Assembly (NCBI GenBank): GCA_900552945.1
Contig: USBI01000010.1
Coordinates: 1 to 42,994 of the forward strand
DNA from: an uncultured Oscillospiraceae bacterium
GTDB lineage: Bacteria; Bacillota; Clostridia; Oscillospirales; Ruminococcaceae
DNA length: 42,994 nt
Direction: 5' to 3'
Numbering within the stretch: position 1 is the first letter of the stretch; each line of letters opens with the position of its first letter. Shown here in pieces: positions 3 to 27,459 of the stretch. A model generated the notes under the pieces. The model saw only the letters and a program-made list of their open reading frames with translations, ran no database searches and had not been told where the DNA came from. A program made the position numbers and the translations under genes.

Positions 3-593
3 TCCAGCTACTACTGCTACGGCTTGGGCATGCGGATTTCCGGCGTGCCGTTCAAACCGGATTATCTGCCGATCGATGAAAAGCATCCGTGCTACCCGGA
101 AGACACCTATTCCCTTTCCAAACACCTCGGCGACGAGATCATGGAAGCATTCTGCCGTGCGTATGATATGAACGGTGTTGCTATGCGTTTGATGGGCGTA
201 TATTATCCGGACCTGGAACGCAGCCGCAACCTTTATAAAATGGGAATCGACTATGTTGTTCCGGAAACCGAAGACAAAGGTTACATCAACGGCGATACCC
301 ACCAGTATGTAGACGCGCGTGATATCGCTTACTTTGTTGGCCTTGCGCTGGAGAAAAAACTCCCGGGCTTTGAGGCGTTCAACCTTATTACTGACACCAC
401 CTTTACCCCGGATTCCGCTTCCTTCTACGCGAAACGCTTCCCGTATATTGCCGATATGTGCGGCAATCTGAAGGATCACGAAGGAATCTTCAGCACCAAA
501 AAGGCAAAAGACTTGATGGGCTATGAGTCCCAGTACACCTGGAGAAAGGGTAAAAACTTAATGCAGGACAACGATATTTTCGATAAAGACTAA
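3..593 (+). CDS. NAD-dependent epimerase/dehydratase family protein (SDR paralog 1), 5' truncated
   Basis: This is the C-terminal part of an extended short-chain dehydrogenase/reductase; the N-terminal Rossmann half lies before the window. The frame is open from base 3 and reads SSYYCYGLGM, matching the ATSYFSYGLG segment of the two complete paralogs downstream. The catalytic Tyr-x-x-x-Lys is visible as YSLSK, followed by a C-terminal substrate region with YVDARDIAYF and NLITD. It is the first of three tandem paralogs in an apparent sugar or polyol catabolic cluster. The region between YY(P/H)D and YVDARD differs strongly from the other two copies, which suggests another substrate or reaction step. 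The family (NAD-dependent redox or epimerase chemistry on sugars, including uronate-dehydrogenase-like enzymes) is clear; the substrate is unknown. Confidence 0.85.
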   Translation, partial: SSYYCYGLGMRISGVPFKPDYLPIDEKHPCYPEDTYSLSKHLGDEIMEAFCRAYDMNGVAMRLMGVYYPDLERSRNLYKMGIDYVVPETEDKGYINGDTHQYVDARDIAYFVGLALEKKLPGFEAFNLITDTTFTPDSASFYAKRFPYIADMCGNLKDHEGIFSTKKAKDLMGYESQYTWRKGKNLMQDNDIFDKD

Positions 594-964
594 TCGTTCC
601 TGCTGTTTGAAACGTATCCTTCTGAAACATTTGATCTACTAACAACCCGGCTTTCAATCCAGCAAAAATAAAACAGAAAACAGAATATGTAAGGATACGG
701 CGTGGTTCATAAGCCGAACCGAATGAATATTCCAAATAGATACCGGCAAACACAACAGTTTTCATCACAGCAAACAACCTTCCGGCATACCGCATACGCT
801 GCAGAAACGGCTTTGAACCATCGGCATCTGACCGCGAAGAGATGGGGCGTGTTTTGTTCCATCTCTTGCGTGGTATATACGGAAAAACGTTTAAAACAGA
901 CAAATCGAATCACAGCACTATTCTTTTGATACAATAATCTCTACATTGAAATGAGGAATCAGAC
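594..964. other. 371-bp intergenic region between SDR paralogs 1 and 2
   Basis: No convincing gene is present. Open frames here are short, lack ribosome binding sites and resemble no family. No strong terminator is seen after paralog 1. A weak extended -10 (TGATACAAT, about 927-935) lies 30 bases upstream of the next gene without a good -35, so transcription may restart here. The gap is much longer than the other gaps in the cluster. Confidence 0.4.
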
Positions 965-1948
965 ATGGTAAAAAATATTTTGATTACCGGCTTTTCCGGT
1001 AAACTCGGCAATTTTGTTGCTCCCTACCTGCAGGACAAAGGTTACAACATCGTTGGTACCGACATTGTTTTGCCAAATCCGGAGAGTGAAAACGCGAAAC
1101 GCCGCATTCCGTTTGTGAAAGCGGACCTTTTGAACATCGGTGACCTGATGAAAGCCATCGCTATGGCGCAGCCGGACGTCATCATCCATCTGGGTGCTAT
1201 CCCGTTCAACTCCGAACTCCAGCCGCCGTATGACACCACCCCAAAGAAGGGCCCGTCGCTGGATGGCGTTCGTTCCAACTACTCCATGCCGGAAGACAAC
1301 ACCATGAACATCAACACCATGGGCATGTTCTACATTCTGGATGCTGCCCGCCGGATGGGCGTGAAAAACGTAATCGCAGCGACCAGCTATTTCTCCTACG
1401 GTCTGGGCTTCCGTTTGAGCGGCGAGCCGTTCGTTCCGGAATATCTGCCGATCGACGAGGAGCATCCCTGCTGGCCGGAAGACACCTATTCCCTTTCCAA
1501 ATACTTGGGTGAGGAGATCATGAAAGCGTTTACCCGCGCGTATGACATGAACACCGTTGCTATGCGTTTGATGGGTGTTTATTACCATGATATGGAACGC
1601 AGCCGCGCGATGTATGACCTCGGACAGGGCCAGTCCTATCCGGAGACTCCGGAAGACGGCGTGATCACCGGCAACACCTACCAGTATGTAGATGCGCGTG
1701 ACATTGCTGTATTCACCGGACTTGCCATTGACAAGCTGGGCAAACTGCCGAACCAGTACGAGGCGTTCAACGTTATTACCGACGTTCGTTTCGACGTTCC
1801 GGATACCAAAGAATTTTATGAAAAACGCTTCCCGACCCTCAAAGATAAGCTGGACGGCCTGCGTGAAGGCGAAGGCCTCTTGAGTATCCGCAAGGCGGAA
1901 GAGCTGCTGGGTTATCATCCGCAGTATTCCTGGAAGAATCAGAAATAA
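965..1948 (+). CDS. NAD-dependent epimerase/dehydratase family protein (SDR paralog 2)
   Basis: This is a complete 327-residue extended SDR. Seen directly: the glycine-rich dinucleotide motif TGFSGKLG at residues 8-15, Asp33 at the end of strand 2 (VGTD), which favours NAD over NADP, the Ser segment ATSYFSYG (139-146), and the catalytic pair Tyr175/Lys179 in YSLSK. The start follows a TGAGGAA ribosome site. Family knowledge supports reversible oxidation, epimerisation or dehydration of a sugar, sugar acid or cyclitol in the cytoplasm. It lies between two paralogs and upstream of an IolE-like protein, so it probably catalyses a redox step in the same pathway. The exact substrate cannot be read from the sequence. 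Confidence 0.88.
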   Translation: MVKNILITGFSGKLGNFVAPYLQDKGYNIVGTDIVLPNPESENAKRRIPFVKADLLNIGDLMKAIAMAQPDVIIHLGAIPFNSELQPPYDTTPKKGPSLDGVRSNYSMPEDNTMNINTMGMFYILDAARRMGVKNVIAATSYFSYGLGFRLSGEPFVPEYLPIDEEHPCWPEDTYSLSKYLGEEIMKAFTRAYDMNTVAMRLMGVYYHDMERSRAMYDLGQGQSYPETPEDGVITGNTYQYVDARDIAVFTGLAIDKLGKLPNQYEAFNVITDVRFDVPDTKEFYEKRFPTLKDKLDGLREGEGLLSIRKAEELLGYHPQYSWKNQK

Positions 1949-1964
1949 AAACGGATGTTTTGCC

Positions 1965-1984
1965 TGCGGGTAACCGCACCCGCA
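1965..1984 (+). repeat. Short intercistronic stem-loop after SDR paralog 2
   Basis: A perfect 7-bp inverted repeat, TGCGGGT/ACCCGCA, with a 6-base loop starts 17 bases after the stop codon and is followed by TTTCCCC. It could be a weak terminator or a 3'-end-stabilising hairpin. A second small repeat, CCCATG/CATGGG, lies at 2059-2077 upstream of the next ribosome site. No poly-T tract supports full termination. Confidence 0.35.
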
Positions 1985-2112
1985 TTTCCCCCGAATCCGA
2001 AGAACAAACGATAAAATCCATACCAAAATGATCAGAAACAGAACAAACCGACTTGATACCCATGAGTCAAACATGGGCTGACTTACACACGATGTAATCG
2101 GAGGAATTTATC

Positions 2113-3096
2113 ATGATCAAAAATGTATTGGTGACCGGTGCTTCCGGTAAACTTGGAAATTTTGTTGTACCATATTTGCAGGATCAGGGCTATAACGTTG
2201 TTGGGACAGACATTGTACTTCCCCGCCCGGACAGTGAAAACGCGAAACGGGGCGTTCCGTTTGTGAAAGCGGATCTTTTAAACATCGGCGACCTGATGAA
2301 AGCCATCGCCATGGCGCAGCCGGATGCGATCGTCCATCTGGGCGCGATCCCGTACAATGTGGAGCTTCAGCCGCCGTATGCGGACCGCACCGGGATCGGC
2401 GCGGCGAGCGACGGCATCCGCACTACCTGGACCCAGCCGGAAGACAACACGATGAAGATCAACACAATGGGTGTGTTCTATGTGATGGACGCTGCCCGCC
2501 GGATGGGCGTGAAAAACGTTATCACGGCGACCAGCTTCTTCTCCTACGGCATGGGCTTCCGCATTTCGGGACATGACTTTATGCCGAAATATCTGCCGAT
2601 CGACGAGGAACATCCCTGCGAGCCGGAAGACAGCTATTCTCTTTCCAAATATTTGGGCGAGGAGATCATGAAAGCGTTTGTCCGCGCGTATGATATGAAC
2701 GCCATTGCGATGCGTCTGCTTGGCGTGTACTACTACAATTCCGAAGCCAGCCGCAAAACCCATGTGTTCCACCGTGGATTTGAGCTGATTCCGGACAATG
2801 AGCGTGAAAAGGTTATGACCTGCACCATCTATGAATATGTAGATGCGCGTGACATTGCTGTTTTCACTGACCTGGCTCTTCAGAAGATCGGCAGCCTGCC
2901 GCATCCGTACGAGGCGTTCAACGTTTGGACCGACACCCATCTGGAGCCGGAGTCGGCGGAATTTTACGCAAAACTTTACCCGAAACTGGCGGACATGGTC
3001 AAAAACCTGAAAGGGCATGACGGCCTGTTCTCTATTGAAAAAGCAAGAAAACTGCTGGGCTATGAGCCGCAATATTCCTGGAGAAATGAGAAATAA
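2113..3096 (+). CDS. NAD-dependent epimerase/dehydratase family protein (SDR paralog 3)
   Basis: This is a complete 327-residue extended SDR with the same layout as paralog 2: TGASGKLG at 8-15, Asp33, ATSFFSYG at 139-146, and Tyr175/Lys179. A strong GGAGG precedes the ATG. The first 80 residues are almost the same as paralog 2, and long stretches are near-identical in DNA (around NIGDLMKAIAMAQPD). The segments at about residues 88-110 and 208-235 have diverged, and these normally shape the substrate pocket. This fits tandem duplication followed by specialisation. It is followed after 37 bases by the IolE-like gene and is probably cotranscribed with it. Reaction type is predicted; substrate is unknown. 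Confidence 0.88.
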   Translation: MIKNVLVTGASGKLGNFVVPYLQDQGYNVVGTDIVLPRPDSENAKRGVPFVKADLLNIGDLMKAIAMAQPDAIVHLGAIPYNVELQPPYADRTGIGAASDGIRTTWTQPEDNTMKINTMGVFYVMDAARRMGVKNVITATSFFSYGMGFRISGHDFMPKYLPIDEEHPCEPEDSYSLSKYLGEEIMKAFVRAYDMNAIAMRLLGVYYYNSEASRKTHVFHRGFELIPDNEREKVMTCTIYEYVDARDIAVFTDLALQKIGSLPHPYEAFNVWTDTHLEPESAEFYAKLYPKLADMVKNLKGHDGLFSIEKARKLLGYEPQYSWRNEK

Positions 3097-3133
3097 TTCC
3101 GGCAGCCGGCAGAGAAAACAAGGAGGTCAATGA

Positions 3134-4024
3134 ATGAGCGAGCAGAAACTTAGAATCGGCCATACAGGTATTACCTGGCTGAATGACGATGATTATGAGG
3201 ATGCTATCCGCACCATTGCGGCGGAGGGCTTCGGCGGGATCGAGCTGTTTGGCTGGGTTCTTCCGAAAATCAAGGCGCAGGGGAAACTCGGCCTGTTTGA
3301 GGAATGCGGACTTCCGCTCTGGTCGGCTTATTTCTCGCATGATATCATCAACCCCGACAAGCGTCAGGAGCAGTTTAACAAGATCAAAGAACAGGGCAGC
3401 ATCCTGCTTTCGCAGGGCGGTACCCATGTTGCGTTCGGTGGTGACATTGTCGACCGCAGAAAGGTAAAATACCTGGAGCACCGGGATTATATCGTCGATT
3501 TTGTCAACGAATGCGGCAAAATGATGCAGGATATGGGCCTGACCCTCTGCTATCATCCGCACACCGGTACCCCGGTCGAGACCAAAGAAGAGATCATGGA
3601 TTTCTTCCAGAGAATCGACCCAAGATATGTCGCTATGGCGCCGGATATCGGACAGATTCAGAAAGGCGGCGCGGATCCGCTGGAGATCATCAAGACCTTT
3701 GAGCCGCTGGTCAAGCATGTTCACTTTAAAGATTTCGGCGGCAAGCTGGAATTTGACTCCACCCTCAATGACGTTGCTGAAGGCGAAACCTACTTCAACT
3801 TCGGCGAAAACGGCAAAGAGATCGACGCAACCGGTTACATCAACTACTGCATCCTGGGCGACGGTGTAGTTGACCTCAAGGGTATTCTTGATTACTTTGC
3901 GGCGAGAGATTTTAAAGGTGCGGTCATGGTCGAGCTGGATGCCGGTATCAATATGCCGGTCACCCCGCAGGAAGCCGTACACGGCAACAAGCTGTATCTG
4001 GAAAAGATTGGCTACATGAAATAA
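3134..4024 (+). CDS. Sugar phosphate isomerase/epimerase family TIM-barrel protein, IolE-like
   Basis: This 296-residue protein belongs to the xylose-isomerase-like TIM-barrel (AP endonuclease family 2) group and most resembles inosose dehydratase IolE. Visible metal and active-site positions are Glu37 (GIELFGW), His141 and His143 (YHPHTGT), Asp171 (APDIG), His197 (VKHVHFKDF) and Glu267 (VELDAG), in the order expected for the family. The LGDGVVDLKGIL segment is also typical. The start has AAGGAGG at the right spacing. Family members isomerise, epimerise or dehydrate keto-sugars and keto-cyclitols using a divalent metal. Next to SDR oxidoreductases it most likely acts on their keto product. 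Isomerase versus dehydratase is not decided by sequence alone. Confidence 0.85.
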   Translation: MSEQKLRIGHTGITWLNDDDYEDAIRTIAAEGFGGIELFGWVLPKIKAQGKLGLFEECGLPLWSAYFSHDIINPDKRQEQFNKIKEQGSILLSQGGTHVAFGGDIVDRRKVKYLEHRDYIVDFVNECGKMMQDMGLTLCYHPHTGTPVETKEEIMDFFQRIDPRYVAMAPDIGQIQKGGADPLEIIKTFEPLVKHVHFKDFGGKLEFDSTLNDVAEGETYFNFGENGKEIDATGYINYCILGDGVVDLKGILDYFAARDFKGAVMVELDAGINMPVTPQEAVHGNKLYLEKIGYMK

Positions 4025-4035
4025 ATACCCGGTTA

Positions 4036-4061
4036 CCGGCCGGCGTTTATACACCGGCCGG
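4036..4061 (+). repeat. Strong GC-rich intercistronic hairpin (CCGGCCGG arms)
   Basis: Two CCGGCCGG arms flank a 10-base loop between the IolE-like gene and the DUF362 gene. No T-tract follows, so it is more likely an mRNA processing or stability element than a terminator. Confidence 0.5.
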
Positions 4062-4094
4062 CAGGGTCGCATAACAGAAGCAGGAGGGAGAAGC

Positions 4095-5366
4095 ATGGCA
4101 AAAAAATCAATTGTATCCATCGCACATTATGACGGCGACCTCGGTACTCCGTCCAACTACACGCAGGAGCATGTGGAGCGGATCAAAGACATGATCCGCC
4201 AGATCGCCGATGATACCAAAGGCGGCATGCAGAACATCGTTCACGAGAGTGACGTTGTTTTCATTAAGATCAATACTGTTAATACATCCCCGGCCGAAAA
4301 TGGTTTTACCACCGACCCGAGAATGCTCCAGGCGCTCATCGAAGTGGTCAACGAGCAGAAACCGAAAAAGGTTCAGATCGGTGAACGCTGCGCACTTGGA
4401 CAGGACACCATGAAGTGCTTCGAGGTCTGCGGCATCAAAGCGGTCGCGGAGAAGACCGGCGCTGAGCTGGTCGCGCTGGAAAATACCGAGTGGGAAATGC
4501 ACAACATGAACCGCCCGATTTCCTATGCCTGCTTCCCGTTCCCGAAGGTGGTCAAAGAAGCAGACGTTTACATCGGCCTGCCGAAGATGAAAGTACATAT
4601 CCACACCGGTCTGACCAATGCTATGAAGCTGCAGTTCGGTCTCTGCCCGGATTATAAGTGGATGTCTGAATGCCACCGTGATGATATCTACCAGAAGATC
4701 GCGAACCTCACCTCGGCTGCTGATCCGGACTGGTTTATCGTTGACTCGCTCTGGACCTGCCAGGGCAATGGGCCGTTCAGCCCGTATCCGGACGACCGTA
4801 TCGTTGACTGGAACACCACCTACGGCGGTTCTGACCCGGTCGCAATCGACACCGTTGCGGAAATGCTGATGCAGTGGGACAACCCGGGCAATCTGCCGTC
4901 TACTGTTATGGGCGCGGCGGAAGGCCTCGGCACCAACAAGCTGGATGAGATTGAGCTCAAAGGCGTGCCGGTGGAGAAGGTTTCCCGTCATTTCAACCGT
5001 CAGGACAGTGTGCTCTGCGGTAAATTCAAAAATGTCAACGTCATTGTCGGTTCCGCTTGTGAGCCGGGCTGCCGTGTTATGGTCCGCATGGGCTTGGATG
5101 CCGCGTATGTTGCAGGTCTCTTGGATAAGCTCCGTGAGCCGATCACCATTTTTGTCGGTTTGCAGTTTGAGCCGTACATCAAGGATGTAAAAGGCCCTGT
5201 GCTCATTTACGGCCAGTGCGCAAAGAAGATGGCGGAGTTCTATCCGGATGCGTACACCTGGTTCCCGACCGAGGAACACCCGACCTGTGTACCGATGTAT
5301 TCCAACATTCCGGGACGCGGTATTCCGGATATTATTCAGAAGATCATCGACAGTTACGATAAATAA
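4095..5366 (+). CDS. DUF362 domain-containing protein
   Basis: This 423-residue protein has the hallmarks of DUF362: KINTVN near residue 57, the central PKMKVHIHTGLTNAMK stretch, a conserved His after SEC, then ADPDWFIVDSLW and GGSDPVAIDTVAEML. Several cysteines (GERCALG, KCFEVCG, LCPDYKW, SACEPGC) could bind a metal or cluster, but there is no classical CxxCxxC ferredoxin motif. The start has AGGAGGGA upstream. I know of no firmly assigned biochemical role for this family in sugar breakdown. Its fixed place between the IolE-like enzyme and transketolase suggests a catalytic role in the same pathway rather than a bystander. Confidence 0.82.
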   Translation: MAKKSIVSIAHYDGDLGTPSNYTQEHVERIKDMIRQIADDTKGGMQNIVHESDVVFIKINTVNTSPAENGFTTDPRMLQALIEVVNEQKPKKVQIGERCALGQDTMKCFEVCGIKAVAEKTGAELVALENTEWEMHNMNRPISYACFPFPKVVKEADVYIGLPKMKVHIHTGLTNAMKLQFGLCPDYKWMSECHRDDIYQKIANLTSAADPDWFIVDSLWTCQGNGPFSPYPDDRIVDWNTTYGGSDPVAIDTVAEMLMQWDNPGNLPSTVMGAAEGLGTNKLDEIELKGVPVEKVSRHFNRQDSVLCGKFKNVNVIVGSACEPGCRVMVRMGLDAAYVAGLLDKLREPITIFVGLQFEPYIKDVKGPVLIYGQCAKKMAEFYPDAYTWFPTEEHPTCVPMYSNIPGRGIPDIIQKIIDSYDK

Positions 5367-5379
5367 GGTTTTTTCTGCG

Positions 5380-5410
5380 TTGCGGCAGACCTGAAAACGG
5401 CCTGCCGCAA
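5380..5410 (+). repeat. Intercistronic hairpin before the transketolase gene
   Basis: A 9-bp perfect inverted repeat TTGCGGCAG/CTGCCGCAA with a 13-base loop lies 13 bases after the DUF362 stop. It is followed by TGTTTGGG, not a T-run, so it is probably a stability or partial-termination element within the operon. Confidence 0.45.
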
Positions 5411-5453
5411 TGTTTGGGAAAACCGAAGATTTTTTGAAAGGACTCGTACCAAG

Positions 5454-7532
5454 GTGGAAAAGATTTACAAAAACGATCCAGCAATCGAAGAAGGCTTGTT
5501 GAAGCTTCTTGAAATCAAGGATTCCGATATACGCAATTCCATCCTTCAACAGGGGCTGGATGCCATCGATCACGGCGTGCACGCCGGCGGCGCGTTTTCC
5601 GCAGTTGTGACGATGGTCAGCCTGTACTATGGCGGCGGCATGAAACTGAACGTGGAGCAGCCGACCGAACCGGGACAGGATCAGTTTATTTTGAGCAAAG
5701 GGCATGCGGTTGCGGCGCTTGCCGCAGTTTATGCGGACAAGGGCTATTTTGACGCTGAGCTGCTCAAGGGTTCCCGTTCCTACGAAAGCATTTTAAACGG
5801 CCACCCCGGGCCGATTCTGCCGGGTGTGCCTATTTCGACCGGTCCGCTCGGGCAGGGCATTTCCGCGGCAGTCGGGCTTGCCATCGCCGCGAAAGAGTAT
5901 CCGCAGAGTGATGTGTACTGCATGGTCGGCGACGGCGAAATGCAGGAGGGCGGCGTTTGGGAAGCGCTTATGTACGGCGCTGAAGCGCGGCTTGACAACC
6001 TGTGCGTCATCGTGGACAAAAACGGCGGACAGCTTGATAATGTGAGCAAAATGATCGTCTGCATGGACGATATTTCCGACAAACTGCGCGCGTTCGGCTA
6101 CCGTGTAATCGAAGTGGACGCGACCGGATATGCGCCGGTCAAAGCGGCGTTTGACGCGTTCCATGAAAACCGGAACGGAAAACCGACCGCGATCGTCTGC
6201 AACGCGACCAAAGGTTCCGGCAGCTTCGCGAGCGCCATCAACGGGCATAAAATCACCTTAAACGAAGAGGTCGGCAAGCAGGAGATTATCATGCAGCTGA
6301 ACCGCCGCGCCGGCCGGGTGGACGCGTTTGTTTCCTATTATAACGCGCTGGCGTGCGACAAAGCGAAAGCGGCTTTGCGTGAAGCGGCCGAAGAGATGAA
6401 CCTCTGCTTAAAGCTCGACAGCGACGGCCGTGCGACTGCAGTAGAGCCGGGCGTTCCGGTGGTCAAGACCAAACCGGCAGCTCCCCGCGACAAAGCAGTC
6501 CGTTACGACGAAGCGAAGCTTCCTGTGGTAGAGGCTGGAAAATCCTACGCGGCGTCTGACATCGTCAAAGGGATGATGAAAGAATTCGCGAAAGACCAGA
6601 AGATCGTTACAGTCGACTCTGACCTTTCTTCCACCAGCGGCCTGCAGGAAGGCGCTATTTTGGTGGATAAGACCCGCGCGCTCAACGTGGGCATTGCGGA
6701 AAGCAACATGATGAACATCGGCGAAGCGTTTGCTTCGGTCGGTAAGAATGTTTGGGTTTCGACCTTCTGCCCCTTCTTTGACTGGAGAGTCATGCGCCGT
6801 ATTGCGGTCAGCTATCAGGAACGCCTGGAAGCGATGGAGACCGAAGGCGGCTGGCTCACCGAAGGACATGGGCTGGATCTCACCTTTGTGGCGACTGCCC
6901 CGGATATGGAGACCCAGACCAATGGCGCCACACACATGGGCAACGACGACATCCTCTTCTTTGACCAGATGGCCCATTTGAAGATCATCACCATCTGCTG
7001 CCCGGCACAGCTCAAGGCAGCGATGAAATGGATCGCGGAAGGCAACAAAGGGCTTGTGTACCTGCGTATTCTGCGCAAGGCGTCCGCGGCTATTTATCCC
7101 GACGATATGAAGTTTGAGTACGGCAAAGGCTACACCCTGCGGGAAAGCGATGATGACCAGGCGGTTATTGTTTCTTACGGGCGCGGTGTGTATGAAGCGC
7201 TTGCCGCGGCGGATGCCCTGAAAGAAAAGGGTATTTCCGTGAAGGTAGTGGATATGCCGTCGGTCGACGAGGAGATGCTCCTCACCCTGTACCGTTCCGG
7301 CAAACCGGTTGTCCTGGCAGAGCAGAACAACGGCTACCTTGCAAATAAACTGCCGAAGCTGTTGCTGCGTGAGGGAGAGGTCATGGACCCATCCCGCATT
7401 CTCACCGTCAACATGCTGGATGAGACCGGCGCGCCGCAGTTCGTGCATTCCGGCACCTACGCGCAGCTCACCAAAGCCTTTGGGCTTTCTGGCGCTCAGC
7501 TGGCCGAACGCATCGAACAGAAACTCGGTTAA
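5454..7532 (+). CDS. Transketolase, fused single-chain, divergent substrate region
   Basis: This 692-residue TPP enzyme starts with GTG behind AAAGGA. Seen in order: His43 (VHAGGA), His84 (SKGHA), STGPLGQG at 128-135, the TPP motif GDG at 159-161 with Asn190, His265 (INGHK), then the pyrimidine domain with the TPP-activating Glu416 (VGIAES), and a C-terminal domain ending near 692. In canonical transketolases a GEDGPTHQ-like loop follows; here the region reads PDMETQTNGATHMGNDD and is preceded by an extra MRRIAVSYQERLEAMETEGG-type stretch. That divergence suggests an unusual donor or acceptor. The role would be moving or releasing a C2 ketol unit from a ketose made by the upstream genes. Many gut Clostridia have split transketolases, so the fused form sets this copy apart from a housekeeping pair. 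Confidence 0.9.
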   Translation: MEKIYKNDPAIEEGLLKLLEIKDSDIRNSILQQGLDAIDHGVHAGGAFSAVVTMVSLYYGGGMKLNVEQPTEPGQDQFILSKGHAVAALAAVYADKGYFDAELLKGSRSYESILNGHPGPILPGVPISTGPLGQGISAAVGLAIAAKEYPQSDVYCMVGDGEMQEGGVWEALMYGAEARLDNLCVIVDKNGGQLDNVSKMIVCMDDISDKLRAFGYRVIEVDATGYAPVKAAFDAFHENRNGKPTAIVCNATKGSGSFASAINGHKITLNEEVGKQEIIMQLNRRAGRVDAFVSYYNALACDKAKAALREAAEEMNLCLKLDSDGRATAVEPGVPVVKTKPAAPRDKAVRYDEAKLPVVEAGKSYAASDIVKGMMKEFAKDQKIVTVDSDLSSTSGLQEGAILVDKTRALNVGIAESNMMNIGEAFASVGKNVWVSTFCPFFDWRVMRRIAVSYQERLEAMETEGGWLTEGHGLDLTFVATAPDMETQTNGATHMGNDDILFFDQMAHLKIITICCPAQLKAAMKWIAEGNKGLVYLRILRKASAAIYPDDMKFEYGKGYTLRESDDDQAVIVSYGRGVYEALAAADALKEKGISVKVVDMPSVDEEMLLTLYRSGKPVVLAEQNNGYLANKLPKLLLREGEVMDPSRILTVNMLDETGAPQFVHSGTYAQLTKAFGLSGAQLAERIEQKLG

Positions 7533-7557
7533 ACCGGCAAAAAAGGAGTAAGTGAAC

Positions 7558-7947
7558 ATGATCAACGTACGCGAAAGCGACATTCCGGAAAACGACCTTC
7601 CCGGCAGAAAACTGCGCTGGGTCATCACACCGGAAAAAGACGGCTGTGAATTTCTTTCCAGCTGTGTCATCCGGGTGGCACCCGGTGCAAAGGTAAAACC
7701 GGCGCATTCCCATCCAAACGGCGAGGAACTCGTCTATATCATCTCCGGTTCGGGGCGTGTGCTCATCGACGGCGAGGTAGAACCGGTTGAAACCGGCAGT
7801 GTGATTGTTTTCCCAAAAGGAAAGATTCACATGCTGCAGAACACCGGTGAAACCGAAATGAAAGCGGTCTGCGTTTACGCACCTGCGGCAGATCCGTCTG
7901 GTTACCGTTATCACGAGGACGTCGACATCGACGACTATGTGAAATAA
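7558..7947 (+). CDS. Cupin domain-containing protein
   Basis: This is a 129-residue single-cupin protein. Metal ligands are visible as His50, His52 and Glu57 in AHSHPNGEE, plus His91 in KGKIHML, matching the two cupin motifs. An in-frame GTG at 7552 is only 3 bases from the AAGGAG site, while the ATG at 7558 has normal spacing, so the ATG is chosen. Small cupins in sugar operons act as isomerases, epimerases, lyases or sensors; this one is intact in its metal site and therefore likely catalytic. It lies 25 bases after transketolase and 29 before the aldehyde dehydrogenase. The reaction is unknown. Confidence 0.85.
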   Translation: MINVRESDIPENDLPGRKLRWVITPEKDGCEFLSSCVIRVAPGAKVKPAHSHPNGEELVYIISGSGRVLIDGEVEPVETGSVIVFPKGKIHMLQNTGETEMKAVCVYAPAADPSGYRYHEDVDIDDYVK

Positions 7948-7976
7948 AATCACACTACAAAAGAGGGATTACAACC

Positions 7977-9479
7977 ATGGAAAAACTCAAAATGTTCATC
8001 AACGGCGAGTTCGTCGAGTCCAAGACCGACAAATACTATGACCTGCACAACCCGAGCACCGGCGAAAAGACCGGCGAAGCTCCCTGCTGCACCGAAGAAG
8101 AAGTCAACGCGGCAATCGCGGCGGCAAAAGCGGCATATCCGGGCTGGAGCAGCACTCCTGCTATCAAACGTGCGCAGATCATGTACAAGATCCGCGACCT
8201 CATCATCGAGCGTATGGATGAGCTGACCATGTGTGTTGCCAAAGAAAACGGCAAGGTTTGGTCGGAAGCGGAAGGTGACGTTCTGAAAGCGAAAGAAGGC
8301 ACCGAAGTTGCAACACAGGTTCCGTCTTTGATGATGGGTGAAAGCCTGATGGATGCTTCCAGAGGATTTGATACGGTTCTTTACCGTGAATCAATGGGCG
8401 TTTTTGCCGGCATCGTTCCGGTCAACTTCCCTGCCATGATTCCGTTTGGCTGGATGACCCCGATCTGCATCGCGTGCGGTAATACCATCGTTCTGAAAGC
8501 GGCAAGCCTTACTCCGAAAACAGCGATGATGTTCGCGCAGCTTTACAAAGACGCCGGCGTTCCGGACGGTGTTGTCAACATCGTTACCTGCTCGAGAAAT
8601 GAGATCGACACCATTCTGGAGCATCCGGATGTTAAAGGTATCACCTTTGTTGGTTCTACCCCGGTTGGTAAGAAGATCTACCAGAAAGCGGCGGCAAACG
8701 GCAAACGCGTTCAGTGCCTGACTCAGGCGAAAAATCATGCGCTTGTTATGTCTGACGCGCCGATTGAGCGTACCGTTGCGGGCGTTATCAACTCCGCGTA
8801 CGGCTGTGCCGGTCAGCGCTGCATGGCTCTCTCCTGCTGTGTTGTTGAGGAAGCAATCGCGGACAAATTTGTGGAAGAGCTTGTGAAACAGGCGAAGAAC
8901 ATCAAAGTTGGCCCGGCTTATGACAAGACCTCCAAGCTCGGCCCGATCACCTATAAAAAACACTATGACGAAGTCATCGCCGACATTGACAAGGGCGTTC
9001 GTGAAGGCGCGAAACTGGTTCTTGACGGCAGAAATTACAAGGTAGAAGGATATGAGGAAGGCTATTATGTCGGCCCGACCATCTTCGACCATGTGACCGC
9101 TGACATGACCATCGGCGACGAAGAGGTCTTTGGCCCGGTTCTGTGCATCAAACGTGTGAAGAACTTCGAGGAAGGCCTTGCGGTTATGAACGCGAACCCG
9201 TATGCAAACGGTTCGGTCATCTTCACCCAGAACGGTTACTTTGCGCGTGAGTTCGTTCGTCATACCGACGGCGGTATGGTCGGCGTCAACGTTGGCATTC
9301 CGGTACCGGTTGGCTTCTTCCCGTTTGCCGGTCATAAAGATTCCTTCTTTGGCGATCTGCACTGCCTTGGCAAAGATGCTTACCGCTTCTTCACTGAGAG
9401 CAAATGTGTGACCCAGCGCTGGTTTGACGAGGAAGAAAAACAGAACAAAGAAGTTTCCACCTGGGACGGCACCATCTAA
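7977..9479 (+). CDS. Aldehyde dehydrogenase, methylmalonate-semialdehyde dehydrogenase (IolA/MmsA)-like
   Basis: This is a 500-residue NAD-dependent aldehyde dehydrogenase. The catalytic Cys282 lies in CAGQRCMALS, and QAKNH replaces the ELGGK block of hydrolytic aldehyde dehydrogenases, as in the CoA-acylating MMSDH/IolA branch. The C-terminal GMVGVNVGIPVPVGFFPF...GHKDSFFGD is also characteristic of that branch. The likely reaction is oxidation of a small semialdehyde to an acyl-CoA with NAD reduction, serving as the exit step of the cluster. AGAGGG precedes the ATG. A terminator follows directly, marking the operon end. The real substrate could be a semialdehyde other than methylmalonate semialdehyde. 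Confidence 0.9.
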   Translation: MEKLKMFINGEFVESKTDKYYDLHNPSTGEKTGEAPCCTEEEVNAAIAAAKAAYPGWSSTPAIKRAQIMYKIRDLIIERMDELTMCVAKENGKVWSEAEGDVLKAKEGTEVATQVPSLMMGESLMDASRGFDTVLYRESMGVFAGIVPVNFPAMIPFGWMTPICIACGNTIVLKAASLTPKTAMMFAQLYKDAGVPDGVVNIVTCSRNEIDTILEHPDVKGITFVGSTPVGKKIYQKAAANGKRVQCLTQAKNHALVMSDAPIERTVAGVINSAYGCAGQRCMALSCCVVEEAIADKFVEELVKQAKNIKVGPAYDKTSKLGPITYKKHYDEVIADIDKGVREGAKLVLDGRNYKVEGYEEGYYVGPTIFDHVTADMTIGDEEVFGPVLCIKRVKNFEEGLAVMNANPYANGSVIFTQNGYFAREFVRHTDGGMVGVNVGIPVPVGFFPFAGHKDSFFGDLHCLGKDAYRFFTESKCVTQRWFDEEEKQNKEVSTWDGTI

Positions 9480-9504
9480 ACCGAAAAAAGTAGACAGTGA
9501 AAGA

Positions 9505-9538
9505 CGGGGCGGACCGAAGCCGGTCTGTCCCGCCTTTT
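9505..9538 (+). terminator. Intrinsic terminator closing the catabolic operon
   Basis: A 12-bp stem CGGGGCGGACCG/CGGTCTGTCCCG (two G-T wobbles) with loop AAGC is followed by CCTTTTGTT. It lies 25 bases after the aldehyde dehydrogenase stop. Confidence 0.85.
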
Positions 9539-9605: not shown

Positions 9606-10871
9606 ATGAACAAAAACACAACCGTCAACCTGCGGTACGGATTGCTTCAGGGAATGTACTGGATGGCTCAGTGCACCATTTTACAGTTCTCGGTCATGCT
9701 GTACAACAGCCGCGGGTATGACAACTACTCTATCGGCGTGGCAACCATGCTGGTGGCGCTGAGCAATGTGCTGGCGCAGCCGCTGTGGGGGCTTCTTTGC
9801 GACCGCCGGCCGAAAATCAAAAAGATTTTTCTGCTGGGTCTGCTTGTTGCCATGCTTGCTTCACTCATCATCCCTTTTTCGGAAAGCAGCATGCCGCTTA
9901 CCGTGTTTGCCATGATGGTGGTTGGCTTTATGTACCAGCCGCTGGCGCAGGTGATCGACGCCTGGATCATGCGGCTCAACGCCAACGGCCATCACATCAA
10001 CTATGCCGCGGTGCGCAGTTTCGGTTCTATGGGCTACGCGTTTACCGCGTTCGGGTACGGGCTTCTGCTCGACCGGTTCGGCATGTGGCTGATGACCCCC
10101 TCTTTCCTGCTTTGCTGTATTGTTTTCTGCCTGATCGTGCTGAAAACAAAAGAGCCGGCCGCCGTCATCGCCAAAAAGCGTTCGGAGGCGAAGGAAGGCG
10201 AGGAATGTTTTTCGGATATTCTAAAAAAACTCATCAAAAACCGCCCGTTTCTCATCCTTGTTGTCACCTATATGCTTATGACGACCGGGATGAATGCGGG
10301 GCACACCTTCATGTCGGTCAAGCTCACCGAGCTTGGCGGCGGGAACATGGATTACGGCATTGTTCTGTCGGTCATGTCCGGGGTGGAGATGTGTTTTCTT
10401 CTGCTGATGTCGAGGGTTGCCCACCGGTTTCGTCCGGCGGCGCTCATGTGCGTGGGATACACTTCGATCCTCATTAAAATGTTCCTGCTCGCGGCGGCGG
10501 ACAGCATCCCGGCGATTATTCTGGCGCATGTCTTCCATGGACCGGCTTACGGCATTATGCTGTGCGCGGTCGTTATGTACATCCAGCAGGTGGTGGATCA
10601 CCGTTCGCTGTTTACGGCACAGACGACTTACGGCGCCTGCATGGGGCTTGGTAACATCATGGGAAGCTATCTTGGCGGGGTCGTTTCGACCGCGCTGGGG
10701 GTTGACCGTATGATTTTTGTGATGATGCTCCTGCCTGCGGTCAGTCTGGTGGTCATGTTCTGTAACACGGTTTACCAAGGGAGAGCGGAACAGCGGCTGG
10801 AATCTGCACAGCCACCGGAAGAAACTGGTTCGGAAACAGTTTGCTGCCCGGTGGAGCAGCCGGAAATTTGA
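9606..10871 (+). CDS. MFS transporter (MFS_1_like / LacY-related type)
   Basis: This 421-residue integral membrane protein has about 12 hydrophobic segments and a loop between TM2 and TM3 reading GLLCDRRPKIKK, the usual MFS gating motif position. The N-terminus (NLRYGLLQGMYWMAQCTILQF) is typical of the sugar/nucleoside proton-symporter-like branch. A charged loop (KKRSEAKEGEE) separates the two halves. GAGGGA precedes the ATG. It is separated from the catabolic operon by a terminator and has its own terminator, but it is the nearest transporter and may import that pathway's substrate. The transported compound is not evident. Confidence 0.85.
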   Translation: MNKNTTVNLRYGLLQGMYWMAQCTILQFSVMLYNSRGYDNYSIGVATMLVALSNVLAQPLWGLLCDRRPKIKKIFLLGLLVAMLASLIIPFSESSMPLTVFAMMVVGFMYQPLAQVIDAWIMRLNANGHHINYAAVRSFGSMGYAFTAFGYGLLLDRFGMWLMTPSFLLCCIVFCLIVLKTKEPAAVIAKKRSEAKEGEECFSDILKKLIKNRPFLILVVTYMLMTTGMNAGHTFMSVKLTELGGGNMDYGIVLSVMSGVEMCFLLLMSRVAHRFRPAALMCVGYTSILIKMFLLAAADSIPAIILAHVFHGPAYGIMLCAVVMYIQQVVDHRSLFTAQTTYGACMGLGNIMGSYLGGVVSTALGVDRMIFVMMLLPAVSLVVMFCNTVYQGRAEQRLESAQPPEETGSETVCCPVEQPEI

Positions 10872-16780: not shown

Positions 16781-18157
16781 TTAAATTGAATTTGTATGAC
16801 TGTATAAACGGGTTGGATATTGCCCGCCGAAGCAGGCGAAACAGAATTGCTCACCGCCGTAAATTTCTTTTAAATCATCTGAGGTGAGGAAATGGAGCGA
16901 ATCCGCTTCCAGTTCCCGGCAGAGTTCCTGTTCGGACAACCGGGCGGAGATGAGCTCCTCACGGGTAGAGGTATCCACCCCATAAAAACAGGGAAAGAGA
17001 ACCCGCGGCGACGCGATGCGCAGATGCACCTCAGCCGCACCGGCGTTTTTCAACAGCCGTATAGTGCGTTTGGAGGTGGTGCCGCGGACGACCGAGTCGT
17101 CGACGAGTACGATCCGCTTGCCGGCGATGACCGCTCGGTCGGCGGAGAGTTTCATCCGCACGCTCAGGTCACGCTGGGCCTGGTTCGGTTTGATGAAGGT
17201 GCGGCCGACATATCGGTTTTTGATAAGCCCCAGCTCATACGGCAATCCACTGGCCTCGCTGTATCCAATCGCGGCGGGAAGGGAGGAATCCGGAACACCG
17301 ATGACAAGATCGGCTTGCAGCCGGCCTTTGTCCTGTTCAGCGAGTCGGCGGCCGGTCTGTTTGCGCATTTCATGCACACTGCGTCCGTCAATGCGGCTGT
17401 CCGGGCGGGAGAAGTAGATGTACTCCATAGCGCAGAGGCGGGGCTCTGTCCGCGCGGTATAAAAACAGCTTTCCATCCCATGTGCGGAGCATTTTACAAT
17501 CTCGCCGGGGGCGATGTCGCGAAGAAAGGAGGCGCCTACCCCATCGAACGCGCAGGTCTCGCTGCTGACGCAGAATCCTTCCCCCAAACGGGCAAGAGAA
17601 AGCGGCCGGAGCCCGTTCCGGTCGCGGATGGCGTACAGGCTTTTTTCGGTGAGGATCAGCACCGAAAAAGCGCCGTCAAGCTGACAACAGGCAGACTTGA
17701 TCTTTTCCAAAAGGCTTCCCTTTGCCCGCTGGATGAGATGGAGGATGATTTCACTGTCACTGCTGCCGTGGAAGATGCTTCCCTGCTCTTCTAACGATTC
17801 ACGCAGTTCGTCGGCATTGACGATCTGCCCGTTGTGCGCTACGGCAATGCAGCCGATTTTGGAACGCGCGACAATGGGCTGTACATTTTCCAGTTCGCTT
17901 CCTCCGGAAGTGGAGTAGCGCACATGACCGATGCTGTTGCAGCCGGAAAGCTGTTCGAGTTCATCCGAAGAAAAAACCTCTGTGACCAGTCCGTGCCCTT
18001 TGCGGCAGCTGACGGTACTGCCGTTGCTTACCGCAATGCCTGCGCCTTCCTGCCCGCGGTGCTGGAGGGCGTGAAGGCCGAAATAGGCCAGTGAAGGAGC
18101 ATCTGGATGATTGTATACACCAAATACGCCGCATTCTTCATGCAGTTCGTTTTCCAA
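16781..18157 (-). CDS. purF: Amidophosphoribosyltransferase (glutamine PRPP amidotransferase)
   Basis: This is a protein of about 458 residues that catalyses the first committed step of purine synthesis, PRPP plus glutamine to phosphoribosylamine. The class II glutaminase nucleophile is Cys9 in HEECGVFGV, so an 8-residue leader would be removed as usual for PurF. HALQHRGQEGAGI, GHVRYSTSG and the PRPP motif VLVDDSVVRGTT are intact. The start is TTG, placed by AAGGGGG 8 bases upstream and overlapping the end region of dapL; the longer frame has no ribosome site. C-terminal cysteines (FCFACFGGQYP) are in the position of the Bacillus-type Fe-S ligands. It is the last gene of the minus-strand glutamine/glutamate series. 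Confidence 0.92.
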   Translation of the reverse strand: MENELHEECGVFGVYNHPDAPSLAYFGLHALQHRGQEGAGIAVSNGSTVSCRKGHGLVTEVFSSDELEQLSGCNSIGHVRYSTSGGSELENVQPIVARSKIGCIAVAHNGQIVNADELRESLEEQGSIFHGSSDSEIILHLIQRAKGSLLEKIKSACCQLDGAFSVLILTEKSLYAIRDRNGLRPLSLARLGEGFCVSSETCAFDGVGASFLRDIAPGEIVKCSAHGMESCFYTARTEPRLCAMEYIYFSRPDSRIDGRSVHEMRKQTGRRLAEQDKGRLQADLVIGVPDSSLPAAIGYSEASGLPYELGLIKNRYVGRTFIKPNQAQRDLSVRMKLSADRAVIAGKRIVLVDDSVVRGTTSKRTIRLLKNAGAAEVHLRIASPRVLFPCFYGVDTSTREELISARLSEQELCRELEADSLHFLTSDDLKEIYGGEQFCFACFGGQYPTRLYSHTNSI

Positions 18158-18170
18158 CCTGATCGCCCCC

Positions 18171-19349
18171 TTATTTGTAAGCCTCTTCAAACCGCTGCAT
18201 AGCAAGTGCCGTATTTTCCGGGCTTCCGAACGAGGTCAGGCGGAAAAAGCCTTCGCCGTTTTTTCCAAAGCCGGCACCTGGGGTTCCAACAACGCCCGCG
18301 CGGGAGAGAAGATCATCAAAAAACACCCAGGAATCCATCCCGTTCGGGCACTCCAGCCAGATGTACGGGGAGTTCTTTCCGCCGATGTGCCAGATGCCCA
18401 GCCGGGTGAGGGTTTCTGAAATGAGTTTGGCGTTCTGCTGATAAACGGCAAGGTGCTCCATGCAGCCCTTCATCCCTTCCGGTGTGAAGACGGCCGCGGC
18501 CGCTTTCTGAACCGGATAGGATACGCCGTTGAATTTTGTGGTCTGGCGGCGCAGCCACATTTTGTTGAGCGACATCCCGCCGCGGGTGAGGTTCACTGGT
18601 ACAACGGTGTAGCCGCACCGTGTTCCGGTGAAACCTGCCGTTTTGGAGAAGGAACAGAACTCGATGGCGCAGTCCCGCGCGCCGGGCACCTCGTAAATGC
18701 TGTGGGGCAGTTCGCCTTGTACAAATGCTTCATAAGCGGCGTCAAACAGAATGACCGCATCCTGCCGCACAGCGTAATCCACCCATTCTTGAAGCTGTTC
18801 TCTGGTGTAAACCGCACCGGTGGGATTGTTCGGCGAGCAGAGGTAGATGATATCCGCCTTCACCGATTCATCCGGCATGGGAAGAAAACCATTTTCCTTG
18901 GTGGCGTTCATATAGATAATCCGGCGTCCCGCCATCAGGTTGGTGTCACAGTAAACCGGGTAGACCGGGTCGGGGATGAGGACGGTGTTGTCGGTATCGA
19001 ACAGGTCGAGAATGTTGCCGAGATCGCTTTTTGCGCCGTCGCTGACGAAAATCTCATCCGGCTCCACCATAACGCCGAAGGTGTGGTAGTGTTCTACGAT
19101 CGCCTGTTTTAAGAAATCGTACCCCTGTTCCGGTCCATAGCCGTGAAACGCGGAGGGATCTCCCTGCTCTGCCGAAGCGGCGACCAGCGCGTCAACAACC
19201 GGTTTGCAGAGCGGAAGGGTCACGTCGCCGATCCCCAGCCGGATGATCTCCCGTTCCGGGTGGGACTCTTTGAATTCCGCCACCTTTCGGGAGATGGTGG
19301 AAAACAGGTAGCTTTCCGCCAGATTGCTGTAATTGCGGTTGACTTTCAT
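18171..19349 (-). CDS. dapL: LL-diaminopimelate aminotransferase
   Basis: This is a 392-residue class I/II PLP aminotransferase. The family signature SPNNPTGAV, the PLP lysine in FSKTAGFTGTRCGY, and GIGDVTLPLC near the N-terminus identify DapL, which makes LL-diaminopimelate directly from tetrahydrodipicolinate with glutamate as amino donor. The second ATG is chosen since AGGAGG lies 7 bases upstream of it but only 1 base from the first. It overlaps closely with pyrG (stop 3 bases upstream of the start) and is followed by purF after 13 bases, so translation is likely coupled. Confidence 0.92.
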   Translation of the reverse strand: MKVNRNYSNLAESYLFSTISRKVAEFKESHPEREIIRLGIGDVTLPLCKPVVDALVAASAEQGDPSAFHGYGPEQGYDFLKQAIVEHYHTFGVMVEPDEIFVSDGAKSDLGNILDLFDTDNTVLIPDPVYPVYCDTNLMAGRRIIYMNATKENGFLPMPDESVKADIIYLCSPNNPTGAVYTREQLQEWVDYAVRQDAVILFDAAYEAFVQGELPHSIYEVPGARDCAIEFCSFSKTAGFTGTRCGYTVVPVNLTRGGMSLNKMWLRRQTTKFNGVSYPVQKAAAAVFTPEGMKGCMEHLAVYQQNAKLISETLTRLGIWHIGGKNSPYIWLECPNGMDSWVFFDDLLSRAGVVGTPGAGFGKNGEGFFRLTSFGSPENTALAMQRFEEAYK

Positions 19350-19351
19350 GC

Positions 19352-21834
<2,483 letters not shown>

Positions 21835-21878
21835 GGTGTTCCTTTCCTATCTTAAAAAGTTATGGCGCAAAACCGGGA

Positions 21879-22451
21879 TTACTGTTCTACGTTGTGCAGC
21901 CGCAGAACTTCTTCTGCGACCTCCCGCCGGGTCATCCGCCGGTCCATCGCCTGTTTTTCCAGGTAACGGTGGGCTTGTTCCTCGCTCATCCCCGAATATT
22001 GGATGAGCAGGCATTTTGCCCGGTCGATGGTGCGGATATCCTGTATTTTCTGTTCCAGACGCTCGGTTTTCGGCGCGGTAAGCGCAAGGCGGCGGTGTAC
22101 CGCACGGCAAAGATGAACAGCGGAGAGGAACATTCTGCGCCCCATTCCCGGGTGATAAAGCAGAATCCCTTTTTCCTCCTGTTCGGAGAGAAGCCGGCAG
22201 GTTTCCGCGTCCCGCACAACCAGCAGAACACCGGCAGTGGTTTCTGCCGCCTCGGCCGCGAGGGAAACACCGGAACCGTCCGGCAGGGGAACGGCAATCA
22301 CGATGACTGAATATTGCCGCGAGGAAAACAGTTTTTTGGCTTCTGCCGCGGTTTTAACCGTTTCCGGAAGTTTGCCGAACTGCTCGGCGAGAAGCTCAGA
22401 CAAGGTTTTTACCGCTTTTTCATTTCCGGATATGAGCAGAAAGTTTTCCAA
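21879..22451 (-). CDS. ANTAR domain RNA-binding antiterminator, NitR-like
   Basis: The protein has about 190 residues. The C-terminal 60 residues form an ANTAR domain: a coiled stretch (ERLEQKIQDIRTIDRAKCLLIQ) then GMSEEQAHRYLEKQAMDRRMTRREVAEEVL. The N-terminal 120 residues resemble a response-regulator receiver, but VIVIAVPLPDG lacks the phosphorylatable Asp, so it is a pseudo-receiver and probably senses another signal or partner. The start is TTG, set by AAAGGGGG 7 bases upstream; longer frames run into glnA. ANTAR proteins bind hexaloop RNA hairpins and prevent terminator formation. Its position directly after glnA matches NitR of solvent-forming clostridia, and three candidate target leaders are in this window. 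Confidence 0.88.
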   Translation of the reverse strand: MENFLLISGNEKAVKTLSELLAEQFGKLPETVKTAAEAKKLFSSRQYSVIVIAVPLPDGSGVSLAAEAAETTAGVLLVVRDAETCRLLSEQEEKGILLYHPGMGRRMFLSAVHLCRAVHRRLALTAPKTERLEQKIQDIRTIDRAKCLLIQYSGMSEEQAHRYLEKQAMDRRMTRREVAEEVLRLHNVEQ

Positions 22452-22480
22452 TGGTATTCCCCCTTTCATCCTGCATATGC

Positions 22481-23803: not shown

Positions 23804-23817
23804 AGTCTGGTCTCCCT

Positions 23818-24540: not shown

Positions 24541-24568
24541 GTTTGTTCCTCCTTGCGTTTCGCACGGG

Positions 24569-27171: not shown

Positions 27172-27190
27172 GAAAACCCCTCTTTTCCCC

Positions 27191-27282
27191 AAAAATAGAG
27201 AAAGCGCCTGCAGGATAAACCGGCCGAAAACGGCCCTGTTCCGCTTTCAAGGAACCATTACCCTGCAGACGCCTTTGTCTGC
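27191..27282 (-). promoter_or_regulatory. Glutamate synthase operon leader: AAAGGC hexaloop hairpin versus terminator
   Basis: On the minus strand, GCAGAC-AAAGGC-GTCTGC (27282-27265) forms a perfect 6-bp hexaloop hairpin beginning a few bases after the predicted start site. Its 3' arm is also part of a long-range 15-bp stem, GCGTCTGCAGGGTAA (27272-27258) with TTATCCTGCAGGCGC (27218-27204), followed by TTTCTCTATTTTT. Inside that stem lie GTTCC/GGAAC and GGCCG/CGGCC hairpins. The hexaloop and the terminator cannot form together. This fits ANTAR-controlled antitermination of the whole operon. Confidence 0.7.
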
Positions 27283-27292
27283 TATGAAATAT

Positions 27293-27321
27293 AGTATAAT
27301 ATTATGCAGGATTCATGTCAA
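27293..27321 (-). promoter_or_regulatory. Sigma-A promoter of the glutamate synthase operon
   Basis: On the minus strand TTGACA (27321-27316) and TATACT (27298-27293) are separated by 17 bases. It drives the series from the glutaminase subunit towards purF. It is about 100 bases from the divergent GSIII promoter. Confidence 0.85.
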
Positions 27322-27420
27322 CAAATTTCATAAATTTCTTTTATTTCACTAAAAAGAGCAATTTTGAAGGGAGACTAACTATTAAAACTGACGGTTTTGA
27401 AAAACAAAACTGCAAAATCC

Positions 27421-27449
27421 TTGACAAACGACCGCGTATGAGGTATTAT
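27421..27449 (+). promoter_or_regulatory. Sigma-A promoter of the type III glutamine synthetase gene
   Basis: TTGACA (27421-27426) and TATTAT (27444-27449) are separated by 17 bases. The predicted start site lies directly upstream of the hexaloop/terminator leader. Confidence 0.85.
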
Positions 27450-27459
27450 CAGAGCAGAA

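Follow-up and report, generated by a model that had tools for sequence, protein, structure and literature searches.

The first genes of the window, a stretch of 42,994 nucleotides from an uncultured Oscillospiraceae bacterium, raise the question of what is degraded by an operon that joins extended SDRs, an IolE-like protein, a DUF362 protein, a divergent transketolase (TK), a cupin and an aldehyde dehydrogenase (ALDH). We give roughly even odds (about 50%) to the reading that its substrate is a sugar or sugar acid of plant origin, broken down with no phosphorylation step. The first-pass annotation knew of no described pathway with this gene set, and none matching was found in the literature we searched.

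Layout and families of the operon

An ORF check of the window placed all eight genes (8/8) on the + strand at the positions first assigned to them, and domain searches agreed with their proposed families. SDR1 (3..593), an extended SDR (PF01370), has no start, its 5' end lying beyond the window edge. SDR2 (965..1948) is an extended SDR with a YxxxK motif, and its nearest solved chains include uronate dehydrogenases. The three SDRs are paralogues; SDR3 (2113..3096) shares 66% identity with SDR2, and SDR1 61%. An IolE-like xylose-isomerase-type TIM barrel (PF01261; 3134..4024) is followed by the DUF362 gene (4095..5366), the TK gene (5454..7532) and a gene for a small cupin (7552..7947; PF07883 by Pfam match), perhaps an isomerase. 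The last gene (7977..9479) encodes an ALDH of the MMSDH/IolA type. It scores 575.9 bits against TIGR01722 (cut-off 448.5), and 10 of 10 solved relatives among the matches listed (E ≤ 1e-90) are named MMSDH. Its subfamily membership, as judged from sequence, supports the CoA-acylating type predicted before.

The intergenic gaps are 371 bases after SDR1, then 164, 37, 70, 87, 19 and 29. The intrinsic terminator predicted at the operon end (9505..9532, + strand) appears real. Its hairpin has 12 pairs (-27.7 kcal/mol, z -4.1) and none of 200 shuffles was as good; the related loci L001 and L002 also carry strong hairpins directly 3' of the ALDH gene, with sequences that differ from that of the window. 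The upstream end is lost at the window edge, and the operon may begin before it because L002 and L003 have second TIM-barrel genes upstream. An MFS transporter, recognized as an ORF with a family match, is encoded 3' of the terminator (9606..10871, + strand). It possibly, though not surely, belongs to the system; among 24 loci, an MFS transporter gene lies near DUF362 in L001 only.

A partly conserved neighbourhood and its likeness to inositol breakdown

The search for a conserved neighbourhood that the first-pass annotation had suggested recovered the gene set, in part, at 24 loci in Clostridia, Treponema, Acidobacteria and one Chloroflexi MAG. As it recurs, partly, in loci of four groups, the grouping is not due to chance. 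L005 and L006 lie in one MAG, and 23 operon genomes were hence counted. The carriers are gut or rumen, termite-gut and soil bacteria. Of 19 loci, 16 encode a cupin close to DUF362. L005, L009 and L021 each have an SMP-30-type protein immediately next to the ALDH or cupin, L006 has a fragment of one, and a member in L015 is SMP-30 by Pfam. This lactonase in relatives points to a route from sugar through lactone to sugar acid. LplB/YtcP-type ABC genes are found in L004, L005, L006 and L009, and a GH39 gene lies downstream in L018. Many Acidobacterial copies have no adjacent SDR, IolE-like or ALDH genes, two Treponema loci (L006 and L009) have no TK or ALDH nearby, and L012 is without TK and cupin. 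Because these loci lack members, the parts do not always form one fixed pathway. A plasmid search with DUF362 gave two weak matches, none covering >80% of the query.

The operon had been likened to inositol breakdown. The likeness holds for enzyme types, as both systems have a dehydrogenase, an IolE-like TIM barrel, a ThDP enzyme, a cupin and an IolA-type ALDH, but it is weak at the points that matter most. Against the IolE equivalog (TIGR04379; cut-off 290), the IolE-like protein scores 91.2 bits, the SDRs are extended and, unlike in myo-inositol catabolism, there is a TK instead of IolD, a DUF362 protein and, in relatives, a lactonase. IolB, IolC, IolD and IolJ, which were said to be absent, were indeed not among the 29 window proteins scanned (nine from the operon region and 20 more, the main but not all ORFs of the window). 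In a variant inositol (cyclitol) pathway, an SDR would form an inosose and the IolE-like enzyme a dione, the TK would open the ring in place of IolD, the cupin would stand in for IolB, and the ALDH would be IolA. The TIM barrel has IolE as its best-named relative and the ALDH falls in the MMSDH/IolA subfamily, in line with the overall match of enzyme types. Yet the IolE-like score, the Iol proteins missing from the scanned set and the SMP-30 lactonase of relatives, which suits a lactone and not a cyclitol, argue against such a pathway, and hydrolysis of ring diones by a TK is not known to us. We consider it unlikely.

The transketolase and a proposed route without phosphorylation

The TK has the N, pyrimidine and C domains and the ThDP/Mg/His residues of a transketolase. 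H26, H66, H100, D155, N185, E411 and H473 (E. coli TktA numbering) are kept in the window enzyme and in 18 of 18 relatives. Its scores fall below the cut-offs of two models, with 151.8 bits against the bacterial TK equivalog TIGR00232 (cut-off 682) and 292.5 against 488 bits for NF004559. H261 is lost in the window enzyme and in all 16 fused relatives, and D469 is also lost; with both gone, the chemistry may have changed. At the positions of TktA R358, S385, H461 and R520, which we take to be the phosphate clamp, the window enzyme has S, T, A and R, leaving the clamp partly lost. Both R358 and H461 are missing from the window enzyme and the fused relatives (16/16), H461 is lost in 18/18 relatives, and R520 is kept in 18/18. 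It may still be phosphate that the retained Arg holds, and the genome may encode a kinase at another place.

From the gene set, its co-conservation, the families and the residues of the TK and DUF362 proteins, we infer a sequence of steps. One SDR would oxidise the sugar to a lactone, which a lactonase, in relatives the SMP-30 protein, would open. At the hydroxyl beside the acid group, the LarA-like DUF362 protein would act as an epimerase that moves a hydride, perhaps with the help of a nickel-pincer cofactor (NPN). Oxidation, dehydration or isomerisation by a second SDR, the IolE-like enzyme or enzymes and the cupin would then lead to a keto-acid that ends in a ketol. The retained Arg of the TK would hold the carboxylate where a phosphate would otherwise sit, and the TK would take off the two-carbon ketol and hand it to an acceptor, an aldose phosphate from the pentose pathway. 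The MMSDH-type dehydrogenase would turn the leftover semialdehyde acid, which from a five-carbon donor would be malonate semialdehyde, into an acyl-CoA. The earlier proposal of a substrate oxidised, isomerised or dehydrated, split by C2 transfer and finished as an acyl-CoA gains partial support from the co-conserved set of catabolic type, the MMSDH-type ALDH and the TK residues; its substrate, order and products are what we still infer.

A precedent for the TK step is the sulfoquinovose transketolase pathway, where a TK splits a sugar bearing an acid group in the place of the phosphate. The TK donor proposed here would likewise bear an acid and not be phosphorylated. The isomerase and dehydrogenase set of that pathway differs from that of this operon, and none of eight papers listed on it is among nine that mention DUF362. 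The operon might instead serve a modified-sugar pathway of the apiose, sulfoquinovose or 3-keto-sugar type, with the TK splitting a known intermediate. TK-split routes are known for sulfoquinovose, and 3-keto-disaccharide-hydrolase genes lie near some copies. These hydrolases, however, turned up only at Acidobacterial loci, and marker enzymes for sulfosugars or apiose were not noticed in an incidental reading of the scanned neighbours. We consider this alternative very unlikely.

A LarA-like fold in the DUF362 protein

The DUF362 protein, proposed here as a sugar-acid epimerase, scores 137.1 bits against PF04015 (cut-off 24). It is no extra that defies assignment: it lies within the conserved core of the neighbourhood, and by structure comparison it has the N-domain fold of LarA, a rare nickel enzyme that inverts hydroxy acids. 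The top 12 entries had Z scores of 14.4-16.8 (the next 5.9), with 214-230 of 423 residues aligned. Eleven are named LarA or malate racemase, and one is an unnamed Thermotoga protein (4nar). Whole-chain TM-scores with LarA were low (0.28-0.42). No further fold family stood out in this comparison, which does not by itself show absence. A profile comparison with broader alignments matched LarA (Prob 86.9, E 4e-6), and ten other families and reversed LarA, as controls, reached at most 0.5. The profile from the operon DUF362 proteins alone did not find LarA; only the broader alignments did. Lar_N (PF09861) was absent from the Pfam matches of 29 members at E ≤ 10, a search in which HMMER filters drop most weak matches, and when PDB sequences were searched with that family's own profile, just two matches came up, both at chance level.

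H168, K178 and H194 are invariant (120/120, best 120 of 323 relatives) and all 21 of the other DUF362 proteins fetched carry them too. The 30 DUF362 loci comprise nine of operon type, 16 in the broad alignment and five missed by the operon model (L045, L047, L051, L072 and L073); all five of the latter have the three residues, the last His being less sure in L073. In a remote alignment to LarA, made with no cofactor-bound structure, K178 and H194 match the NPN-linked Lys184 and the nickel ligand His200, and H168 matches the catalytic His174, while the position of His108 is A100. With the LarA superfamily of NPN racemases and epimerases, the DUF362 protein has in common the N-domain fold and three positions, those of one catalytic His, of the Lys linked to NPN and of the His that binds nickel. 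It differs in having no Lar_N match, no His108 counterpart and, in its C-terminal part, four Cys that are invariant or nearly so. LarA homologues with a single catalytic His exist. LarASp and LarABw have Asn at the His174 position, keep the other His and have a carbohydrate gene context like that seen here (PMC12611868), but in the DUF362 protein it is the other His that is missing, and they are LarA proteins, not DUF362.

The four Cys could point to another function. C322, C375 and C398 occur in 120/120 and C326 in 119/120 sequences (best 120 of 323 relatives), and could form a metal or Fe-S site of a dehydratase or oxidoreductase, the LarA-like fold being mere ancestry. DUF362 proteins often carry Fe-S domains, according to two papers (PMC5742341, PMC7955657), and the family is widespread among genomes in which LarC was not detected. 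To our eye, the Cys spacing is unlike that of ferredoxin, though, and the LarA NPN-Lys and nickel-His positions are invariant. We judge this function rather unlikely and prefer an epimerase.

LarC is encoded in 20 of the 23 operon genomes, and LarC or a strong LarA in 23/23, against high LarC base rates: 144/150 genomes in an Acidobacterial order, 67/98 in the Treponema family and 31/100 in the family of L001. DUF362 is present in 91/98 and 65/100 genomes of the latter two. With such base rates, and with DUF362 also in genomes without detected LarC, co-occurrence was rejected as proof of NPN use. Within the L001 family, the LarA set was defined by a best Lar_N E ≤ 1e-8 (30 genomes) and the DUF362 set by a best E ≤ 1e-13 (63 genomes; two of the 65 over the cut-off were dropped). 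LarC was found in 27/63 genomes with DUF362 vs 4/37 without (Fisher p 7e-4), and in 16/30 with LarA vs 15/70 without (p 0.002). Among LarA-carrying genomes, the counts were 16/25 with DUF362 vs 0/5 without (p 0.014); among those without LarA, 11/38 vs 4/32 (p 0.14). For genomes of at least 2 Mb, the LarC link had p 0.07 for DUF362, 0.0008 for LarA and 0.72 for DUF362 without LarA. The DUF362 term stayed positive in a logistic fit with LarA and genome size (1.6; bootstrap 0.5 to 3.6). The Treponema family showed no DUF362-LarC link (LarC in 62/91 with DUF362, 5/7 without), and in one Treponema genome DUF362 was not noticed beside LarC in the LarC neighbourhoods. Incomplete genomes blur these statistics, as LarA itself is found without LarC in 14 of the 30 LarA-carrying genomes of the L001 family. 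Of the 14 genomes used as controls, Synechococcus elongatus and Haloferax volcanii matched LarC and DUF362 but not Lar_N.

Which protein uses NPN in NPN-making genomes without LarA is an open question, and the authors who raised it expect a fold unlike that of LarA (PMC11796402). DUF362 might be this missing NPN holoprotein, and the operon might encode a kinase-free sugar-acid pathway that depends on nickel, with a DUF362 epimerase supplying a carboxylate-gripping TK, a speculative and rather doubtful extension of our main reading. No assigned role for DUF362 was found in the literature searched. If right, these readings would describe a phosphate-free, TK-based route for plant-sugar breakdown in rumen, termite-gut and soil bacteria, provide the first testable function for a common family, and offer a concrete candidate protein for NPN use in organisms without LarA.

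Layout and conservation of the operon

The eight ORFs reported in the first-pass annotation lie where it had placed them, all on a single strand (3-9479, +), and Pfam and NCBIfam bear out all its family names. They encode three extended-type SDRs (PF01370), a xylose-isomerase-type, IolE-like TIM barrel (PF01261), a DUF362 protein (PF04015), a transketolase (TK; PF00456, PF02779, PF02780), a cupin (PF07883), and an aldehyde dehydrogenase (ALDH) exceeding the NCBIfam cut-off of the CoA-acylating MMSDH subfamily. The first SDR is truncated at the window edge and followed by a 371-base gap; the remaining intergenic gaps are 19 to 164 bases. The predicted terminator was also recovered as a hairpin of 12 base pairs followed by a T-rich tail at the operon end (z -4.1), and different strong hairpins are found directly 3' of the ALDH gene in two related loci, L001 and L002. 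An MFS gene is positioned past the terminator and, among the relatives' loci, is near DUF362 in L001 only. The observation of an eight-gene run is sound.

Elsewhere in the window, 16781-29678 is a nitrogen-assimilation block: three ORFs carry glutamate synthase parts, and two glutamine synthetases, of which one is type III, a CTP synthase, and a DAP epimerase are also encoded there. The stretch 31227-42049 encodes GH31 and GH42 glycosidases, a pair of AraC regulators, and a glycosyltransferase-acyltransferase fusion.

To date the pathway is apparently undescribed, as had been suggested: none with this gene set was found in the literature searched. The search, with most subscription journals outside its coverage, found no publication on DUF362 together with transketolase, and the portions of the literature available assign DUF362 no function. 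Titles and abstract openings on transketolase, inosose, sugar acids, and gene clusters name no such pathway, nor do titles on apiose name one with a transketolase. Transketolase pathways are on record for sulfoquinovose.

An alignment of 29 DUF362 proteins searched against GTDB genome contigs gave 24 loci, all from MAGs by title. They represent rumen and other Clostridia, Treponema, Acidobacteria (Bryobacterales, Solibacter, and others), and one Chloroflexi MAG. Counts of same-strand neighbors within 6 kb cover the 19 loci whose sequence reaches at least 1 kb left and 2.5 kb right of DUF362; L014, L019, L020, L022, and L023 are left out. The neighborhood is conserved across loci, and based on these counts the conserved core is DUF362-TK-cupin, with a cupin in 16 loci and a TK in 16 (15 fused, one split). 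The suggested SDR-IolE-like-DUF362-transketolase neighborhood is kept in part, with the IolE-like gene in 10 of the 19 loci and a related SDR in seven. An ALDH is encoded nearby in seven, a second TIM barrel in six, and an SMP-30 protein in five. Three loci speak against a rigid pathway: TK and ALDH are both missing nearby in L006 and L009, and L012 is without TK and cupin.

Operon-type DUF362, defined by E 1e-100 or better, has a patchy distribution: it is present in 9 of 150 genomes in an Acidobacterial order, 2 of 98 in a Treponema family, and 1 of 100 in the family of L001, each sample containing the genome around which it was drawn. The Treponema MAG G005 encodes two copies of the system (L005 and L006), the L006 copy being without TK and ALDH nearby.

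The SMP-30/gluconolactonase-like protein, an assignment checked with Pfam on the L015 member, directly adjoins ALDH or cupin in L005, L009, and L021 and is a fragment in L006. LplB/YtcP-type ABC transporter genes, named by reading with one confirmed as BPD_transp_1, flank four copies. Four Acidobacterial loci (L012, L013, L023, L024) encode, within the fetched stretch, a PQQ-dehydrogenase-like enzyme (Pfam on the L023 member) that could be a periplasmic stand-in for an SDR. No sugar kinase was noticed in the clusters (30 neighbors scanned with Pfam, others by eye); the L005 glycerate kinase is outside the cluster on the opposite strand. By Pfam, L018 has a "cyclase"-type hydrolase gene within the cluster and a GH39 gene downstream. 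Upstream of the latter, a 419-residue protein (L018 14168-15427) with no Pfam match reads as a putative uronate-isomerase-type amidohydrolase, a hint of uronates.

Transketolase residues and a proposed pathway

We aligned the window enzyme with E. coli TktA, together with 18 related TKs (16 fused, two split). All retain H26, H66, H100, D155, N185, E411, and H473. At the phosphate-binding set of TktA, which we take to be R358, S385, H461, and R520, the window enzyme has S, T, A, and R. H461 is gone and R520 retained in all 18 relatives; R358 is gone in all 16 fused enzymes, as are H261 and D469, the latter replaced by N. The split enzymes, encoded by two genes in place of the fused TK (L005 11269-13065, L020 1865-3647), have R at the R358 position and retain H261. 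These substitutions suggest the fused enzymes may use a donor with a carboxylate in place of phosphate, and an altered reaction is possible.

Past family and residue identity, we infer the following steps. An SDR would convert a sugar to a lactone, a lactonase would yield the acid, and DUF362 would epimerize the position next to the acid group. Oxidation, dehydration, and isomerization by an SDR, the IolE-like enzyme, and the cupin would then give a keto-acid with a terminal ketol. The TK would take off the ketol and transfer it to a pentose-pathway aldose phosphate, with the MMSDH-type enzyme forming an acyl-CoA from the remainder. With a five-carbon ketol acid, the remainder would be malonate semialdehyde, a classic substrate of the MMSDH subfamily.

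DUF362 and its possible link to the nickel-pincer cofactor

In a remote alignment, residues H168, K178, and H194 of DUF362 match LarA His174, Lys184 (NPN-linked), and His200 (nickel ligand). DUF362 might be the missing NPN holoprotein in NPN-making genomes without LarA. All 23 operon genomes encode LarC or a strong LarA: LarC in 20 and LarA in the other three (G002, G006, G020). In four (G005, G012, G015, G021) LarC is present with Lar_N matches absent or weak. G005 encodes two LarC, yet its Lar_N match is weak. Base rates are high, however, and DUF362 in general often occurs where LarC is not detected. In the L001 family sample (100 genomes), 55 have neither LarC nor LarA, and 27 of these encode DUF362; of the 91 Treponema genomes that encode DUF362, 29 gave no LarC match. 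That H168, K178, and H194 are invariant across DUF362 at large may thus have a cause other than NPN, and we give the holoprotein reading about one chance in five.

In the 14 genomes used as controls, LarC and DUF362 both match in Synechococcus elongatus and Haloferax volcanii with no Lar_N match. Bacteroides ihuae has DUF362 and no LarC, and the opposite pattern, LarC and no DUF362, is seen in Corynebacterium glutamicum and Methanocaldococcus jannaschii. In the family of L001, DUF362 is associated with LarC about as strongly as LarA is; among its genomes without LarA, the DUF362-LarC association is not significant. Of the 30 genomes with strong LarA in this 100-genome sample, 14 show no LarC, for which incomplete MAGs or a different cofactor source may be the explanation.

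A further DUF362 subfamily, of Acidobacterial genomes (L052, L054, L055, L057, L062), has a His-Arg motif one column off the LarA His108 position and, judging from the alignment, may keep both catalytic His. Toward the C terminus of operon-type DUF362 (window 4095-5366), four cysteines (322, 326, 375, 398) are invariant or near-invariant, a possible metal or Fe-S site. A Treponema LarC (L088 5911-7698) adjoins a small conserved protein and, by reading, an ABC transporter/hydantoinase-like gene run. The link between DUF362 and LarA is the part of the case most deserving bench work.
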